Under the pieces are notes generated by a model that was not told the origin of the DNA, searched no databases, and was given only the letters and a program-made list of their open reading frames with translations. The translations under genes and the position numbers were made by a program. Positions 15,918 to 57,034 of a DNA stretch of 64,000 bases are shown here, one piece after another. The number at the start of each line of letters is the position of its first letter. Position 1 is the first letter of the stretch. This DNA is from a virus, in IMG/VR virus record IMGVR_UViG_3300023082_000010, positions 1 to 64,000 of that record. One strand, 5' to 3'.

Positions 15918-16874
15918 ATGGCAAAGAAACCAATCTGCGTGATTGACGGAGACCTTTTAGCATTTAAAGCGTCTGCTGCAAATGAAACTCGGGGCATCAT
16001 TGCATTGCACAAACCAAGTAATAGAAGTCGTGCATTCAAACACCGTACAGAGTTTAAAGAATTTATTGGCGAGAAGTTCCCACTTGATGATTTTGATATC
16101 TCAGATACACAAGTGACAGAAGATATCTCTCACGCTTTGTTCACAGTTAAACGAATGATTGAAAGTATTTGTGAGACATGTAAGACTGATAAGTATGAGA
16201 TTTATATCAGTGGAAAGGACAACTTCAGAGATGAGCTACCCTTGCCTCAGAAGTACAAAGGAAACCGTTTAAACCTTGTAAAACCCCTACAACTTAAAGA
16301 AGTTATGGAGTATCTGAAGGGTGTTCACAAGGCTGAAGTGGTGATTGGTGAGGCCGACGATAGAATTTCTATCCGTCAGTATGAGGGGATTAAATCAAAG
16401 ACTAAAGTGATTGGTTGTTCGACAGATAAAGATAGTATGGGCACTGACGGTTGGGTTTACAACTGGGATAAGATGTCAGAACCAATGCTTGTGAAAGGAC
16501 TAGGTGATCTGTACATTGATGAGAAGAATAAAGTCAGAGGCCATGGAAGTAAGTGGAAATATCTTCAGTGGCTTGTGGGTGATTCTATTGATGGTCTAAA
16601 TCCTTGCTATCTTGCTGGTGTTAAGTTTGGTGAAAAGGCTGGTTACAAGATTCTCAAAGATCTAACAACAGAGCAAGAGTGCTGGCAAGCAGTTCACGAC
16701 ACTTACAAGTCTTGGTATCCGGTTGAGGTGGAGTATGTAGATCAATGTGGTCGACCTCAAGTTGCGGACTACTTGAAGCTTGCACAAGTGTATTGGGATG
16801 GTATTCACATGTTGAGGTTTGAGGGTGACTTTGTAGATGTGCGTGAAGTTATGTTGAAGATGGGGATTGTATGA
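15918..16874 (+). CDS. 5'-3' exonuclease / flap nuclease
   Basis: A 318-residue member of the FEN-like 5' nuclease fold. Metal-binding carboxylates are visible in VIDGDLLAFK near the start, IGEADDRIS, and STDKDSMGT, and the helix-two-turn-helix region is GDSIDGLNPCYLAGVKFGEK. It should remove RNA primers and trim 5' ends, or degrade host DNA for nucleotide recycling as T7 gp6 does. The ATG at 15918 follows AGGAG; an out-of-frame ATG lies four bases earlier. It overlaps the HNH gene by 4 bp. Confidence 0.85.
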   Translation: MAKKPICVIDGDLLAFKASAANETRGIIALHKPSNRSRAFKHRTEFKEFIGEKFPLDDFDISDTQVTEDISHALFTVKRMIESICETCKTDKYEIYISGKDNFRDELPLPQKYKGNRLNLVKPLQLKEVMEYLKGVHKAEVVIGEADDRISIRQYEGIKSKTKVIGCSTDKDSMGTDGWVYNWDKMSEPMLVKGLGDLYIDEKNKVRGHGSKWKYLQWLVGDSIDGLNPCYLAGVKFGEKAGYKILKDLTTEQECWQAVHDTYKSWYPVEVEYVDQCGRPQVADYLKLAQVYWDGIHMLRFEGDFVDVREVMLKMGIV

Positions 16875-17392
16875 AAGAGCCTTGGAAACAAAGCCCTGAT
16901 GTGTGGCCCACGAAGTCTAGCTTTTTCACTTGGCTGAGGGGCGCACTTAGGAAATCCATTTGGCAATTCTACCCTCCAAAGATGCAGTTTAAGAATGAAG
17001 GATGTTCTAAGCCACCAGAAGATTACAAAGGACGTGCTAAGTCTGGAGCCTATTGTGAACTTACTGGTGAGTGGACTGGGAAGTCTTTGTTGGAAGTAGA
17101 TCACCGCATTGGTAATGTAAAGTTCACCGAGTGGGAAGATGTCCTACCTTTCATTCTGCATCTGTGTTGTGATAAAGATGAAATGGCCTTGGTTAATAAA
17201 GAGGCACATAAAATCAAGAGTTATGCTGAGAGAATGGGGATTACTTTTGAAGAGGCAGTTATTCAAAAAGAAATTATTGCAATCTGCAAGTCGAAGAAGG
17301 ATAGCATTTGGCTTAGAGAACATGGTATTATCCCAGCCTCTACAGCCGCTAAAAGACGAAAACAGATAGAGGAGTATATGAAGAATGAGTGA
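16871..17392 (+). CDS. HNH-family endonuclease
   Basis: The 173-residue product contains CELTGEWTGKSLLEVDHRIG, the beta-beta-alpha metal site of HNH nucleases with the DH pair, and ends with a Lys/Arg-rich helix. Unlike the other HNH genes it is embedded by 4-8 bp overlaps on both sides in the replication operon, so it may be a resident repair or resolution enzyme rather than a mobile element. Both remain possible. Confidence 0.7.
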   Translation: MKEPWKQSPDVWPTKSSFFTWLRGALRKSIWQFYPPKMQFKNEGCSKPPEDYKGRAKSGAYCELTGEWTGKSLLEVDHRIGNVKFTEWEDVLPFILHLCCDKDEMALVNKEAHKIKSYAERMGITFEEAVIQKEIIAICKSKKDSIWLREHGIIPASTAAKRRKQIEEYMKNE

Positions 17393-18045: not shown

Positions 18046-18819
18046 TTGAGCACACGTATTCTAGTAATTCCAGATGCGCAAGTTAAAGATGGTGTGAACA
18101 TTGACCACTTGAAGTGGTGTGGTGAATACCTAGTAGAGAAACGTCCAGACACTATCGTATGCCTTGGAGATTTCTGGGATTTTGAGAGTCTTTCTTTCTA
18201 TGATAAAGGTACGTTATCTTTTGAAGGCCGTCGGCTTATCAAGGACATTGAGGTTGGTAAAGAAGCAATGGAAGTTATGCTTAAACCACTTAAAGACTTG
18301 CAAGCCAAACAACGAGCAGCTAAGAAGAAAGTTTATGAACCAAGGATGGTATTCACACTTGGCAATCACTGTGAACGACTGATGCGTGTGCCTAAGTCTT
18401 CACCAGAGTTCTCAGGTTTTATTGGTTATGAGCTTTTAGGTCTTGAAGCTCATGGTTGGGAAGTTTATGACTTTCTACTGCCTGTTGAAATTGAAGGTAT
18501 TTACTTTGTACACTTCTTGGCTAATCCGATGACAGGTAAGCCATATGGTGGTACAGCTACAAGTATGCTGAAGAACGTAGGTAAGAGCTTTGTTCAGGGG
18601 CATAAGCAAACACTTGACATCGCTGTACGGCCAACAATTGATGGTAAGATGCAATTAGGTATTGTTGCTGGTGCTTTCTATCAGCATGAAGAAGCTTACA
18701 AGGGATACACAGGTAATAATCATTGGCGTGGCATGGTCATGCTCAACAATGCGAAAGATGGCTATGCTGACCCTTGCTTTATTTCTATTGACTATCTTAA
18801 AAAGAAATACGGTAACTGA
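18046..18819 (+). CDS. Metallophosphoesterase
   Basis: A 257-residue calcineurin-like phosphoesterase. Motifs in order: D-x-Q (VIPDAQ), GDFWD, GNHCE, a later GH (VQGHKQT) and a final GAFY. These bind two metals and hydrolyse phosphodiesters or phosphomonoesters. In phages such enzymes act on nucleic acid ends or nucleotides. Translation starts at TTG after AAGGGGAAG. It sits at the end of the exonuclease operon. Confidence 0.8.
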   Translation: MSTRILVIPDAQVKDGVNIDHLKWCGEYLVEKRPDTIVCLGDFWDFESLSFYDKGTLSFEGRRLIKDIEVGKEAMEVMLKPLKDLQAKQRAAKKKVYEPRMVFTLGNHCERLMRVPKSSPEFSGFIGYELLGLEAHGWEVYDFLLPVEIEGIYFVHFLANPMTGKPYGGTATSMLKNVGKSFVQGHKQTLDIAVRPTIDGKMQLGIVAGAFYQHEEAYKGYTGNNHWRGMVMLNNAKDGYADPCFISIDYLKKKYGN

Positions 18820-18822
18820 TAC

Positions 18823-18852
18823 TTGACAGCGCCCCTAAAAAAGGGGCATAGT
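18823..18852 (+). promoter_or_regulatory. Promoter with hairpin spacer
   Basis: TTGACA (18823-18828), 18-bp spacer, CATAGT (18847-18852). The spacer is a perfect hairpin, GCCCCT-AAAA-AGGGGC with one A extra. No U-tract follows, so the hairpin is not a standard terminator. It starts the DUF1937-endonuclease / ThyX / NrdAB operon. Confidence 0.55.
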
Positions 18853-18877
18853 CCGCTTACTTTAATTGGAGGTGTAA

Positions 18878-19942
18878 ATGGTCTATTATTTGGCAAGTCC
18901 GTATAGCGTAGATGCTGATTACGAGCTGATGAGACTTCGTTATAAATGTGTCATGAAAAAGACAGCAGAACTTACACGGGAAGGTTTTGCAGTTTTTAGC
19001 CCCATTGTAAATTCACATATATTGTCAACTCGTTACGCCATGCCTACCACTTTTGATTTTTGGGCGAAGATTGATTACGAATTTATCGCTGTCTGTTCTG
19101 AGGTTTGGGTGTATAAGATGGACGGATGGGAAGATTCAGTAGGCGTGCAAAAGGAAATAGAGTATGCACAAAGCTTAGGAAAGACAGTAAAATATATTGA
19201 GTGCGAAGATAGTCCTCCAGCGAGAGCATATAAAGCCCGTATGAAAGACATTTCAAAAAGTAAGCCTTTGTATGGTGTTGGTATCAACGATGTTTGGTAC
19301 AGCCCCACCCAAGTTAAGAGAGTTTCAGAAGGAAGGGGGCAAGGGTGCTTTAAAGCAATTTGGCACTGTATAGTCTATCAACGCTGGGCAAATACCTTGA
19401 AACGGTGCTATGATGAGAAAAATCTTTTACTGGCGCCGAGCTATGAGGGTTGCACCATGGTTGAAGAGTGGCATTCATTTAGTAATTTTAAAGCTTGGCA
19501 TGATATTAATTTTGTCCCAGAATGGCACTTGGATAAAGATATCCTGAAGGATAATAACAAGATATACGGCCCTGACAGTTGCGTATTCGTTCCCGTCTAT
19601 TTGAATCAAATACTGGCGGTAAATACATCAGGTAAATGCTTGCCCGGAGTTAACAAAAGAGTTGAAAAGTGGAGAACAAAGCCTTACCATGTATCCCATG
19701 AGTTTGGCTCCATTGTAAAACGTAAAGATTTCGCTACAGAAGAAGAAGCCCACGGTTGGTGGTGTGAACAACGCGCAGAATCAATTCGTTGGAAGCTGCG
19801 TAAATATAACCTCGATGAGCGTGGAATGCATAAAGAAACTGTTACAGAAAGGCTTGAAGCTTTAGCAAAAAGATTGGTAGAATTGAAATCTTGGGACAAA
19901 GCATATAATTACAGCGAAAACATTGCAGACAAAGTGGCTTAG
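18878..19942 (+). CDS. DUF1937 domain fused to homing-endonuclease-like module
   Basis: The 354-residue product has two parts. Residues about 1-112 (YYLASPYSVDADYE, then GFAVFSPIVNSH, W.KIDYEFIA.C.E) match DUF1937, a nucleoside deoxyribosyltransferase-like fold found in phages, fitting its place in a nucleotide operon. Residues about 125-330 match the endonuclease family at 21817, 31493 and 56297 (YGVGIND, RW.NTLKRCY, PSYEGCTMVEEW, HLDKDILKDNNKIY). Neither part is known to need the other. GGAGG precedes the ATG. This may be a mobile endonuclease captured at the 3' end of a metabolic gene. Confidence 0.75.
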   Translation: MVYYLASPYSVDADYELMRLRYKCVMKKTAELTREGFAVFSPIVNSHILSTRYAMPTTFDFWAKIDYEFIAVCSEVWVYKMDGWEDSVGVQKEIEYAQSLGKTVKYIECEDSPPARAYKARMKDISKSKPLYGVGINDVWYSPTQVKRVSEGRGQGCFKAIWHCIVYQRWANTLKRCYDEKNLLLAPSYEGCTMVEEWHSFSNFKAWHDINFVPEWHLDKDILKDNNKIYGPDSCVFVPVYLNQILAVNTSGKCLPGVNKRVEKWRTKPYHVSHEFGSIVKRKDFATEEEAHGWWCEQRAESIRWKLRKYNLDERGMHKETVTERLEALAKRLVELKSWDKAYNYSENIADKVA

Positions 19943-19952
19943 GAGAGAAGGC

Positions 19953-20609
19953 ATGATTTTTAAAGTTGGAGACAAAGTTAAGCTCATTGTTAATGACTAC
20001 AACCTTGACGGCGAAGGTAGCGGCCCTGTTCTGGGCGCTGTTCTAGAGGTTAAAGAAAACTGTGACACACGGGGTTTGTGGATTGATAAGACATCTGTGC
20101 AGCTGAAAAATATTAATGAATATTATTCAGAAGATTTTGAGCCTATTGAGCAAGAGAAACTAAAAACTAAATTCTCTCTAGATGACCGTGTAATCAGCAT
20201 CAAAAACACACCAGAAGTACCTGAAGGATACATCGGCTACGTTGTAGAAGATCCTTTGGTGGATGTAGTGGGACGGTGGGATTATGCAGTTCGTAAAGAG
20301 AATAATGCTCTGCAAACTGAATACTTTAATGAAGATGAATTAGAGTTGTTGAGTGCGGGACAAACAGCCGTCCCTAGCCCGCAAGATAAACCAAGCTCTG
20401 CACTACACAAACAAGTGAGTGGCGATCACTATAAAGATTGTAAGATTCAGCCTATTGAGTATATTCACGCCAATGGTTTGAGCTACCTTGAAGGAAATGT
20501 TATCAAGTACACCACACGGCATAGCAAGAAGAATGGCAGGAAAGATATTGAAAAGGCCATTCATTATCTTGAACTGATTTTGGAAATGGAATATAAGGAT
20601 AAAGAATGA
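19953..20609 (+). CDS. DUF3310 protein with N-terminal SH3-like part
   Basis: A 218-residue product. Residues about 1-130 contain two beta-rich, KOW/SH3-like stretches (FKVGDKVKLIVNDYN; FSLDDRVISIKN). Residues about 160-215 are a clear DUF3310: SGDHYKDCKIQPIEYIHANG, then LEGNVIKYTTRH and KDIEKAIHYLELIL. DUF3310 proteins are common in phages and often called nucleotide kinase-like without proof. AGGAGAGAAG precedes the ATG at 19953. It overlaps thyX by 4 bp. Confidence 0.8.
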   Translation: MIFKVGDKVKLIVNDYNLDGEGSGPVLGAVLEVKENCDTRGLWIDKTSVQLKNINEYYSEDFEPIEQEKLKTKFSLDDRVISIKNTPEVPEGYIGYVVEDPLVDVVGRWDYAVRKENNALQTEYFNEDELELLSAGQTAVPSPQDKPSSALHKQVSGDHYKDCKIQPIEYIHANGLSYLEGNVIKYTTRHSKKNGRKDIEKAIHYLELILEMEYKDKE

Positions 20610-21349
20610 GTCAGATTAAGGTGGAATATATTAATCACTGTGGTCATGACCTTTCAGTGGTAGATGCGGCACGGTGTAGTTTTGATAAATTAAGTGATTG
20701 GGAATATCCATCACAGTTTCCTGAAGAAAATTATAAAGATCCAGATAGTCGATTTTATCGAAACGAACTTGGAGGCTTTCAACGACTGAAGTCTTCAGAT
20801 GAAAAGCTTATTAAATACCTTGCAACTCACAAACATTTCTCGCCATTCAATCACAGCTTTATTAGTGTTCGTGTAAAGGCTCCTGTGTTTGTTGCTCGTC
20901 AACTTGTTAAACATAAATTTATGCCTTGGAATGAAGTGAGCAGACGCTATGTGAAAGGTGAAGTTGAATTTTATACACCGGAATATTGGCGAGAGGGTTC
21001 AGATAATGTAAAACAAGGCAGTGTAGATGAAGATGCGTATCCTCCAAGCATGAGTACTCATAACGCAAGTTGGTACGGTGATATAAATGACTATCACGAT
21101 TCTGCACTCAACTACTATAATCATTTGATTGAAAATAATGTTTGTGCCGAACAAGCTAGGCAAGTGTTACCACAATCGATGATGACGACGTGGATTTGGA
21201 GTGGCACACTGGGCGCTTTCTGTGATATGCTTAAGCTGCGACTTGATAGCCACACTCAATATGAAACGAGAATTGTTGCACAAGAAGTTGCTAAGATTGT
21301 AAAAGAATTGTTTCCTGTATCCTATGAGGCATTGGTTGGAGTAGAATAA
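20606..21349 (+). CDS. thyX: Flavin-dependent thymidylate synthase ThyX
   Basis: A 247-residue enzyme that methylates dUMP to dTMP using methylene-tetrahydrofolate, FAD and NADPH. The ThyX signature RHR-x4-NE-x-SxRY is visible as KHKFMPWNEVSRRY (residues 102-115), with Lys replacing both Arg of the first RHR, an observation worth noting. RQVLP and the C-terminal LRLDSHTQYE region also fit. Its place beside nrdBA shows a module that makes dNTPs for phage DNA synthesis. Confidence 0.92.
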   Translation: MSQIKVEYINHCGHDLSVVDAARCSFDKLSDWEYPSQFPEENYKDPDSRFYRNELGGFQRLKSSDEKLIKYLATHKHFSPFNHSFISVRVKAPVFVARQLVKHKFMPWNEVSRRYVKGEVEFYTPEYWREGSDNVKQGSVDEDAYPPSMSTHNASWYGDINDYHDSALNYYNHLIENNVCAEQARQVLPQSMMTTWIWSGTLGAFCDMLKLRLDSHTQYETRIVAQEVAKIVKELFPVSYEALVGVE

Positions 21350-21816: not shown

Positions 21817-22554
21817 ATGAAAGTTGGCGACATCTACACCAATAAGTTCGGAGAAACATTTAAAGTGGTGGAGAAAACCACCAGTAAAAATGTCGTCGTA
21901 GAGTTTTGTGATGCGTATAAAGGCAGGACAACTACTCAAAAAGTACATATTCTCAGGGGCGCTGTTAGGAACCCTTTTGCTAGAAACTTATACGGTGTAG
22001 GTTATCTTGGACAAACAACAAAAGACAAATCACCAACAAGTAACCCTGAATATATTCGAGCTTACAGTGCTTGGTGTGGTATTATGGAAAGGTGTTACAA
22101 TAAAAATTTCCAAGAAATTCATCCCTCTTACGTAGGTTGTTATGTAAAAGAAACTTGGCATTGTTTCATGGTATTTGCCGAATGGTATATTGAGAATTCA
22201 ATTCTGAATTGGGATTTAGATAAAGATATTTTAGTAGTGGGTAACCGTGAGTATGGTCCTGAGACTTGTTTGTTTCTACCGCGTCACATTAATAATCTTT
22301 TTCACAAAAATGAGGGTCATAAGGAATCTGAATTGCCTGTAGGTGTTACACTCGCAAAGTCAGGTAAATACAGGGCAAGACTTTCAGAAAAAGGTTTTAG
22401 AAAACATTTAGGATACTATTTTACTCCTGAAGAAGCTCACCAAGTATACCGAGAAGCTAAGGTTGAATATGTACGGAAGGTTGCTTTTGATCATAAAGAA
22501 AATCTTCACCCTAAAGCATTTGAATTGTTAAGTAATTGGAGTTATATTGAATGA
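21817..22554 (+). CDS. Homing-endonuclease-like protein (family copy C)
   Basis: The 245-residue product has an N-terminal SH3/KOW-like part (about 1-55), the shared family core (LYGVGYLGQ, IMERCYNKNF, PSYVGCYVKETW, WDLDKDILVVGNREY, about 63-165) and a C-terminal AP2-like DNA-binding part (ELPVGVTLAKSGKYRARLSE...LGYYFTPEEAHQ). It is related to the products at 31493 and 56297 and to the C-terminus of 18878. It lies between small genes and nrdB, in the same direction. The catalytic residues are not certain from sequence alone. Confidence 0.7.
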   Translation: MKVGDIYTNKFGETFKVVEKTTSKNVVVEFCDAYKGRTTTQKVHILRGAVRNPFARNLYGVGYLGQTTKDKSPTSNPEYIRAYSAWCGIMERCYNKNFQEIHPSYVGCYVKETWHCFMVFAEWYIENSILNWDLDKDILVVGNREYGPETCLFLPRHINNLFHKNEGHKESELPVGVTLAKSGKYRARLSEKGFRKHLGYYFTPEEAHQVYREAKVEYVRKVAFDHKENLHPKAFELLSNWSYIE

Positions 22555-31492: not shown

Positions 31493-32029
31493 ATGAAGTT
31501 AGTTTATGGTGTGGGTATAAATGATGCTGATTACACCCTCAGTAAATATGAAAAATTTGTCAGCGCGGAGGGCTTATTGAAGGTTCGTCAGGTATGGGTT
31601 TGTCCTTTTTATTCGAGATGGCAATCCATGATTACTCGCTGTTACAGTAAGAATTTTCTTATAGAGAATCCATCCTACAAAGATTGTACCGTCTGTGAGG
31701 AATGGTTAACTTTTAGTAAATTTAAATCTTGGATGGAGACGCAGAATTGGAGTGGTAAGACCCTTGATAAAGATATATTGTGTAAAGGCAATAAAATTTA
31801 CTCTCCCGAATTTTGTGTTTTTGTTCATGCCAAAGTAAATCTTTTTATCATTGAACGTGAGAGTAAACGTGGTGAATGGCCTATTGGTGTTCACTTTGAA
31901 GAGAGCTACCAAAAGTATAAATCCACAATAACTTCTAACAATAAGACTGTAAACTTAGGTAGGTATGATACAGCTGAGCAAGCCCATCAAGCTTGGTTGG
32001 ACTTTAAGCTTGATGGGCTTATATACTAG
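31493..32029 (+). CDS. Homing-endonuclease-like protein (family copy B), frameshifted end
   Basis: A 178-residue product on the strand opposite to all neighbouring late genes. It has the family core (LVYGVGINDADYT, SRWQSMITRCYSKNF, NPSYKDCTVCEEW, LDKDILCKGNKIYSPEFC) and the AP2-like end (WPIGVHFEESYQKYKSTITS ... TAEQAHQAW). It stops at 32029, but the -1 frame continues with a protein-like tail (about LASEQEDDRVAKALVERYKN) to 32100, so a one-base deletion has probably shortened it. AAGGTG precedes the ATG. The insertion splits the holin from the endolysin. Confidence 0.7.
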   Translation: MKLVYGVGINDADYTLSKYEKFVSAEGLLKVRQVWVCPFYSRWQSMITRCYSKNFLIENPSYKDCTVCEEWLTFSKFKSWMETQNWSGKTLDKDILCKGNKIYSPEFCVFVHAKVNLFIIERESKRGEWPIGVHFEESYQKYKSTITSNNKTVNLGRYDTAEQAHQAWLDFKLDGLIY

Positions 32030-54576: not shown

Positions 54577-56300
54577 TCAAAGCCTGAATTCGTTTGTCTT
54601 GGTGTAGATGGGAACTGCGAAGGATGGTACGCTTTTGTTTTGTGCCAAAGTGAGGTAGGCCAAAGAAGCACAGTCTGCCATATCATCGTGGCCCATTTCT
54701 CCACTACGTCTCTGTCCATCAAAAGCTTCAAGTTCCTTGTGAAAGAAATCATTATCCGCTACAATTTTATTCCAAAGATCATTGCAGCAACCTTTCACAA
54801 TAGAAACAACACCTAGTTCGGCAGATGCAGCAAAAGGTCTGAAGGAGTCCAGCTTACCTAGTGATGCTCTTTTTGTTTTAACCACATATCCATGTTCAAT
54901 AATAGAACGAGCTATTAGCATAGTAGATGCCTTAGCTGCTGGGTTAGGGTCTTCTCCGAGAATAATTTCTACTTCGGGACCATCCCTTTGAGCACTGTCT
55001 AGGATTTGTTTTTCCCAATCACCAAATGTTATTCGTGTTCTATAGACATCAAGGATCACATAATTACCATTTCTCAGCTTACCAAGCTTCAATGAGGCGA
55101 AGTAATCGGGCGATCTGTTTCCGTCGTGTGGCAAAGTGCCAGCGAAGTCAAAAACCCGAACTACCTTTGAAAACTCTGAATGGTGGGGTGCTTGAGTCAA
55201 CACTGGAACAGTATTCCTATCGTAATAGGTGCTGTTCTCCGGCTTTGCAAACCAATTCCCATAGAGCAATCGCTCGCGGTCAAGTTTTGGAAGAGATTCC
55301 AAATTTGAGCGATATAGTGGGTTACTTTTCTTCAGTGGGGGGTTATCATCAATAGTGCCAAATAACCCTTGAAAGCTAATTGGCTTTACTTGATCGTCAT
55401 GTTCGGCTTCTAATTTAGGATTTCCGTACTTGTCAATAAGCTCTTGCGCACTTTCACCCCAAACAATATCACCAGCCACTCGGAGCAGATAACGAACTGT
55501 GCCATTCTTTTCTGGGTCTGGGCGGCCAGCTAGTGCATGGCCCTCTGGATATAAATACCATTGTGCGTACTTTAGAAGCCAGCTTGAATTGTCAGGATTG
55601 CATGACATGACAATTCCGTGGACATTCTTCGCCTCAGACCTAAGCCGCGACCAAAGCCACCAAATATCTTCTTCCTCCGCGTGAGTTGCCTCATCATAAA
55701 AGATATTTGAAATTTGAATACCTTGATATTTCTTAGCTGCGTTAGCATTCTCATAGTGCGAGAAGCTAATCTCTGCACCACTAGAAAATACTAATTTTTG
55801 ATCTTTCAATCGAATTTTAAGACTAGGATCATACTGACTATATAGTTTAACTGCTTCCTGAAACAGACCACCAGAAGCCATAATCGCACTGGAGTTCTTA
55901 CGAATACAATAAGCCTTATAGTTTGGATCTTCTACGAAACGAAGATGCCGCATTAACCCAACATAACTTTTGGAACTACCCAATAAATTCTAAGGTTCGT
56001 TAAACCTTCTCACATTTCTATGAGGATCGGACTATATCACCTGTTATTTCTAACAGCCCCCCGTTTCGATTGCACTTGCAACCTACTCTGCTACACTCAT
56101 CACAGATAGTCTCTGAACGTTACTTATTTCTAAGTCTTCGCTGCTGATTACCTTTAACTTAATAGTAAGGGTTCCAGCAATTAGAGGGGTTTAAAGCGGC
56201 CCGTAGTTCAAGCCGCCCCTCCAACTAGGAGGATTTGAGCATCTGAGAGCAGGTATTGCGATTGGAACCTGCTCTGAGCTGAGATAACAGTTTCTGTCAT
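54577..56300 (-). CDS. terL: Terminase large subunit, gene split by group I intron
   Basis: The DNA-packaging motor, 497 residues after splicing. Exon 1 (56211-56300, 30 codons) encodes MTETVISAQSRFQSQYLLSD then AQILLVGGAA. Exon 2 (54577-55980) begins GSSKSYVGLMRH. Joined, they restore the Walker A P-loop VGGAAGSSKSY (about 26-36). Walker B is IFYDEAT. Nuclease carboxylates are in VRVFDFAG, IILGEDPN and MGHDDMADC. Without splicing, translation from the ATG would stop at the TGA just after exon 1. The exon 1 ATG overlaps the stop of the upstream endonuclease gene (GTATGA), with no strong ribosome site, so translation is probably coupled. A TAA just upstream in frame excludes a longer N-terminus. 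Confidence 0.9.
55981..56210 (-). other. Group I intron, 230 nt, no ORF
   Basis: Conserved elements in order on the minus strand: P AATTGCTGGAA (56172-56182), Q AATCAGCAGC (56140-56149), R GTTCAGAGACTA (56107-56118), S GATATAGTCC (56029-56038). Exon 1 ends in U and the intron ends in G, as required. The internal guide GGCCGC (56196-56201) pairs with exon-1 GCGGCU with a U-G pair at the splice site (P1). GAACTAC (56203-56209) pairs with exon-2 GTAGTTC (55973-55979) as a 7-bp P10. Small and without an internal gene, it probably self-splices; homing would need a nuclease in trans. Confidence 0.92.
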
Positions 56301-57034
56301 ACTTGCACCAGTTTAATCCTTTTAGTTCTTGGAGTTTTTGAGGCTGCTGATTTGTTTTCAAACTCAGTAGCGAAAATACAAGCTTCTCTAGAATAAACTT
56401 TATTACCTTCAAATTTAAGATCTTTGTCTAAATTATAAGGGCTTGTACCGAGCTGTTTAGCTTCCAACCAAGAATCAAAATTATCTAAACTGGAGATGTC
56501 TGAAAGAAAGTTAGCAAAACAATGCCACCTCGTATCTACGAAACATTTGCCAAAATACCCATGAGCATCTTTAGGATTATAACAACGCTTCATCATATTT
56601 GACCAAAGCTGCTTAGCTTGTTTCCAATAAGGCAGAAGCTCATACTCTCCTAAATAACCAATCCCAAGAAAGGTTTTGCTATAAGGATCGGATATTTTAC
56701 CCATCCGTACATTATCAATGTGTACTTCTGCTGTGTAGCCTGTATCATAGAATTGAACTACGCACTTCTTGGACTTCTTACTAATAATTTTTCCACTGTA
56801 TCCAGCATTATTAGTAAACTCTTCGTCCCAAGGTTGCCAGTCGTGAGCTGTACATTTTGGTACGCTAAAGTCTCTAACCTTACCAGCAAGTACATTGCCA
56901 GCGTCAGCTGTTGTTTCATAACCTGTAGTAACAAATCTTAAATGTAGTTTTCGGCCATCTCGACCAATAACTTCCATAATTCCGTAGCCATTCGACTCGT
57001 AAAACTGATCATAAATTTTTCTTACATTAGCCAT
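56297..57034 (-). CDS. Homing-endonuclease-like protein (family copy D) beside the intron
   Basis: A 245-residue product. It has two SH3/KOW-like repeats (GIMEVIGRDGRKLHLRF...TGYETTADAGNVLAGKV; GKIISKKSKKCVVQFYDTGY...HIDNVRMGKI) and the family core (FLGIGYLGE, LWSNMMKRCY, CFVDTRWHCFANF, NLDKDLKFEGNKVYSREAC). The AP2-like end found in copies B and C is missing; it stops at LVQV where terL exon 1 begins. It lies outside the intron. GGGAG precedes the ATG. Likely target: the intronless terL gene. Confidence 0.7.
   Translation of the reverse strand: MANVRKIYDQFYESNGYGIMEVIGRDGRKLHLRFVTTGYETTADAGNVLAGKVRDFSVPKCTAHDWQPWDEEFTNNAGYSGKIISKKSKKCVVQFYDTGYTAEVHIDNVRMGKISDPYSKTFLGIGYLGEYELLPYWKQAKQLWSNMMKRCYNPKDAHGYFGKCFVDTRWHCFANFLSDISSLDNFDSWLEAKQLGTSPYNLDKDLKFEGNKVYSREACIFATEFENKSAASKTPRTKRIKLVQV

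Follow-up and report, generated by a model that had tools for sequence, protein, structure and literature searches.

An in-frame fusion of a DUF1937 domain with a putative homing-type nuclease module in a phage genome

The fusion gene and its surroundings

The window analyzed here comprises positions 1 to 64,000 of IMG/VR record IMGVR_UViG_3300023082_000010, a virus record of 92,420 bases. Within it, one uninterrupted ORF, which starts with ATG behind a strong ribosome-binding site (GGAGGTG), joins two protein modules that are otherwise encoded by separate genes (Table 1). The Pfam DUF1937 match covers residues 3-105 (E 3e-17) and profile positions 3-112 of 116, and is thus complete, with a score of 63.7 bits against a curated cut-off of 23; in PHROGs, the HNH endonuclease family phrog_953 was matched at residues 117-336 (E 7e-51). 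The in-frame join of DUF1937 and nuclease that the earlier note had described therefore consists of two complete domains in one 354-aa frame. Its reading of the C-terminal part as a member of a nuclease family that also occurs free-standing in the same window agrees with the match to ORF 21817-22554 (35% over 142 aa, E 5e-22), a likeness that, as an alignment result, is far beyond chance. GC content is 0.41 in both halves. The note's statement that this is not an intein likewise stands: the Pfam search identified no Hint domain, the DUF1937 domain finishes ahead of the nuclease, and there is no conserved C-extein. A group I intron carrying the nuclease was also rejected, with no Rfam intron match over 15-24 kb, as was a defence gene, with no PADLOC match.

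Table 1 Features of the fusion locus and related nuclease genes. Positions are those of the window unless stated otherwise.
Feature	Position	Strand	Basis or remark
Metallophosphoesterase	18046..18819	+	93% identical protein in relative L137
Promoter-like element TTGACA-GCGCCCCTAAAAAAGGGGC-ATAGT, just upstream of fusion gene	18823..18852	+	sigma-70-like, 10/12
Ribosome-binding site GGAGGTG of fusion gene	18868..18874	+	
Fusion ORF, DUF1937 + IPA-HNH-type modules	18878..19942	+	354 aa plus stop; single open frame
DUF1937 module, residues 1-121, nucleoside 2-deoxyribosyltransferase / nucleotide N-glycosidase fold	18878..19240	+	Pfam, end-to-end match, model
Signature SxGxxxE, residues 87-93, E93 expected nucleophile	19136..19156	+	alignment of 32 sequences
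IPA-HNH-type module, residues 122-354, Met first	19241..19939	+	phrog_953, E 7e-51
LDKD core, residues 218-221, K220 at place of HNH general-base His	19529..19540	+	62 relatives; hhalign
AP2-like C-terminal DNA-binding region, ~residues 257-295	19646..19762	+	family profile vs plant AP2 structures
SH3-like + DUF3310 protein, own ribosome-binding site	19953..20609	+	
ThyX thymidylate synthase	20606..21349	+	E 1e-39
Free-standing IPA-HNH paralogue	21817..22554	+	
Free-standing IPA-HNH paralogue	31493..32029	+	
Free-standing IPA-HNH paralogue	56297..57034	-	
Two more IPA-HNH copies	~73.7 and ~87.4 kb of virus record		

The promoter-like element ahead of the gene is the best sigma-70-like match of the region and occurs once in the window; 28 nt of it are 96% identical in relative L135 (2282-2309), where an operon of DUF3310 and DUF1937 follows. 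In both the window and L135 this 28-30 nt element contains an internal palindrome, GCCCCTAAAAAAGGGGC, located between its -35 and -10 boxes, and the gene that comes first in the operon behind it differs between the two. The DUF3310 protein downstream of the fusion is 84% identical to its counterpart in L019 in the C-terminal part and does not match it in the N-terminal part, apparently through module exchange within the gene. Upstream of the phosphoesterase, 16871-17392 encodes an HNH endonuclease of a different family (phrog_1985, E 3e-49). The virus record holds five further IPA-HNH copies; recent local duplication of the tail from one of these paralogues was not supported, as no sequence in the tree exceeds 37% identity to it.

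The two modules of the fusion protein

Structures of the DUF1937 half and the nuclease half were predicted separately. The model of residues 1-121 (pLDDT 90.7) gave PDB entry 1T1J as the best fold match (E 5e-7, TM 0.78), followed by nucleoside 2-deoxyribosyltransferase (NDT, E 2e-4), TIR proteins and the CMP N-glycosidase MilB. S87, G89 and E93 are invariant among the 32 aligned sequences, and the fusion keeps all invariant residues, including E93, the expected catalytic nucleophile. The DUF3310 and ThyX genes downstream and the phosphoesterase gene upstream make a role in nucleotide metabolism plausible. We found no mention of DUF1937 in the literature searched. Among other phages with the domain, the Caulobacter phages CcrSC and CcrBL9 (L132, L134) carry it directly after genes for PnuC and a nicotinamide-nucleotide adenylyltransferase, a gene order that suggests a link to NAD metabolism, and the DUF1937 protein of Pseudoalteromonas phage J2-1 (L128:2504-3214) is extended to 236 aa by ~110 unrelated residues at its C-terminus.

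Judged by its sequence, the tail belongs to IPA-HNH, an atypical HNH+AP2 class that is abundant in Barbavirus-like phages (PMC10448857). We infer that phrog_953 corresponds to this class because the two have a common architecture, an AP2 match was obtained, and ICP1 and Barbavirus are among the matches. Relatives of this type were identified in 1,340 phage records. D219, K220 and D221 are invariant in 62 of 62 relatives, and hhalign placed LDKD on the IDH of canonical HNH; the comparison of the tail family with canonical HNH+AP2 reached 96% probability, mostly over AP2, with Lys at the His position. In canonical HNH enzymes this His is the general base. In all family members that we sampled, D-K-D is invariant at the place of the D-H of HNH nucleases. 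The term homing endonuclease, used in the earlier note, is accordingly a family assignment: membership holds up (phrog_953, E 7e-51), whereas the canonical first His of HNH is absent from the family. The fusion retains the core residues D219, K220, D221, N227, Y230, C235 and N243, and the AlphaFold model of the tail (pLDDT 83.5) has a strand-loop-strand-helix around LDKD...N, a predicted arrangement consistent with an HNH core; in a search of PDB folds, the nuclease half had no significant match.

The C-terminal part of the tail has changed. The family profile matches plant AP2 structures (E 5e-6), and the AP2 hallmark Leu-Gly is replaced in the fusion by Arg-Lys at residues 282-283, the second of these positions being Gly in 62/62 relatives. 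Pfam AP2 matches 23 of 63 family members, the fusion copy not among them. The tail has the second longest of 101 branches in a quick tree, a length to which thin sampling of its subclade may contribute. The loss of Leu-Gly suggests drift or re-use of the AP2-like part.

Residue 122, the first of the tail, is a Met placed like the starts of free-standing relatives (M..KLVYGVGIND). Of 11 starts tested, it alone had no ribosome-binding site with 4 or more matched bases in front of it; the other ten included those of two free-standing paralogues. Separate translation of the nuclease from Met122 was rejected on this ground, and the nuclease is probably produced solely as the enzyme's tail.

Stand-alone relatives and the origin of the join

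DUF1937 homologues were collected from IMG/VR, GTDB genomes and GenBank phages, and the resulting 132 ORFs (two or three contigs being counted twice) were searched with profiles of both nuclease types. The tail was absent from all 131 ORFs other than that of the window, so the fusion is not ancient or universal in DUF1937 proteins, in keeping with the earlier note, and the tail-less relatives that it had proposed to look for exist: nine homologues with 48-57% identity and shared neighbours are all stand-alone proteins of 107-121 aa. The 121-aa protein of L139 and L140 aligns end to end with residues 1-121 of the window protein, with ECxDSP near both C-termini. At L142, the DUF1937 stop codon and the start of the next gene, a DUF3310-type one, overlap, and ThyX follows with no nuclease between; on gene order, this is an empty site, the window's arrangement minus the nuclease. 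The thyX gene of that related phage is itself interrupted by a group I intron (L142:1648-2503; Rfam RF00028, E 3e-25), which carries an HNH-like ORF (1731-2441). None of the nine close loci has a fused or directly following IPA-HNH copy at the DUF1937 3' end. A profile search placed an HNH-type gene within 2.5 kb of DUF1937 in five of them, which marks the locus as an apparent hotspot. A relaxed search of viral contigs found no second contig with the junction peptide, and none of 100 other distinct nuclease ORFs that we fetched is fused to a metabolic gene. The fusion seems unique to this phage lineage and, as read from these comparisons, is the derived state among DUF1937 proteins.

We consider it likely that the insertion of a free-standing IPA-HNH gene took place at the 3' end of a phage DUF1937 gene or a few codons upstream of that end, and that loss of the DUF1937 stop codon then made one reading frame of two complete ones. 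IPA-HNH genes commonly appear to abut or overlap the end of the preceding gene: in Barba19A the overlap with the upstream phosphatase is 11 nt, that with DNA polymerase of a Rhizobium phage is 50 nt, and that with an exonuclease is 4 nt. Free-standing homing genes of T4 are placed in the same way relative to their upstream genes (PMC2988022). The product would be a 354-aa chain with an NDT-like N-glycosidase or deoxyribosyltransferase, predicted to be still working, at its N-terminus, a tether of ~15 residues, and a complete module with putative nuclease and DNA-binding functions. As no ribosome-binding site precedes the former nuclease start, the nuclease would now arise only as part of the enzyme's translation product, under the promoter of the enzyme. 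With its core residues kept and its AP2-like part drifted, the tail is probably an old homing gene heading for decay or re-use. We infer all three elements of this account, namely capture by read-through, retained enzyme activity and a decaying nuclease.

That two separate genes were joined by an assembly or sequencing artefact is very improbable. The junction is known from a single metagenomic contig and from no other; against an artefact, gene order, ribosome-binding sites and GC content are seamless across the fusion, start and stop signals are normal, the flanking genes on either side recur in related phages, an exact frame is required, and no other copy is close enough to recruit a mis-join, the tail's best identity to any of them being 37%. 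A rather unlikely origin is in-frame insertion inside DUF1937, whereby a nuclease lacking its stop entered a few codons before the old end and the terminal ADKVA is the displaced DUF1937 C-terminus. In a MAFFT alignment ADKVA forms five residues past the C-termini of the closest free-standing nuclease relatives, the native DUF1937 proteins of L141-L143 end in KKEVA, and GTGGCTTA is common to L141 and the window at the stop. As evidence, however, some six matching bases ahead of the stop count for little, several relatives having been compared; L139 and L140 indicate that residue 121 is already the native DUF1937 end, and the insertion requires loss of the nuclease stop too.

The earlier note had set capture against a true two-part enzyme. 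Recent capture is favoured, given the stand-alone relatives of the same neighbourhood. It is improbable that the fusion is a selected enzyme whose nuclease part places the N-glycosidase on DNA, or still homes and gains from guaranteed co-translation. All 354 codons are open, the invariant residues of both catalytic cores are all kept, and a domain-shuffled homing-type nuclease with a new role is known in Odn of ICP1 (PMC8263062); yet only one case is known among the 132 DUF1937 ORFs, the AP2 hallmark is lost in the tail, and the general-base His is missing throughout the nuclease family. We regard as more doubtful still a working two-part protein in which the AP2-like/HNH part is a tether to DNA, or in which co-translation lets a homing gene persist without intron or intein.

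Comparison with known systems

The fusion shows a step that is usually inferred, the turning of a free-standing homing-type gene into part of a host protein, and its stand-alone relatives and empty site make it possible to test directly if such tails degenerate or acquire a function. It also draws attention to a large family of putative nucleases with an unusual predicted active site. The arrangement is new, a rare variant of known parts and not a new kind of system. Its N-terminal part has the fold and the invariant residues, Glu93 included, of DUF1937/NDT-like proteins (1T1J, NDT, MilB), and the window protein goes on where the close DUF1937 relatives end, at 107-121 aa.

IPA-HNH homing endonuclease genes have been described in ICP1 (gp59, gp115-116 and gp209) and are abundant in Barbavirus (PMC10448857). 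Their N-terminal HNH-like core and C-terminal AP2-like part have putative counterparts in the tail, and as in the window they occur in many copies per genome beside nucleotide-metabolism genes; in Barba19A, a free-standing copy lies between metallophosphoesterase and MazG/ThyX genes. The other IPA-HNH modules that we found are free-standing or combined only with further homing-type modules, whereas that of the fusion is the tail of a metabolic enzyme, has no ribosome-binding site of its own and no longer carries the AP2 Leu-Gly. Another homing gene at a nucleotide-metabolism gene is mobE, in or beside nrdA of T4-like phages, where its start overlaps the host stop (PMC2988022); there the host gene is split or just abutted, whereas in the window both frames form one protein. 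Odn of ICP1 is, like the fusion, a homing-type nuclease recombined with another domain. In Odn the newly acquired domain binds DNA, and satellites are the target (PMC8263062), whereas the partner in the fusion is a metabolic enzyme.
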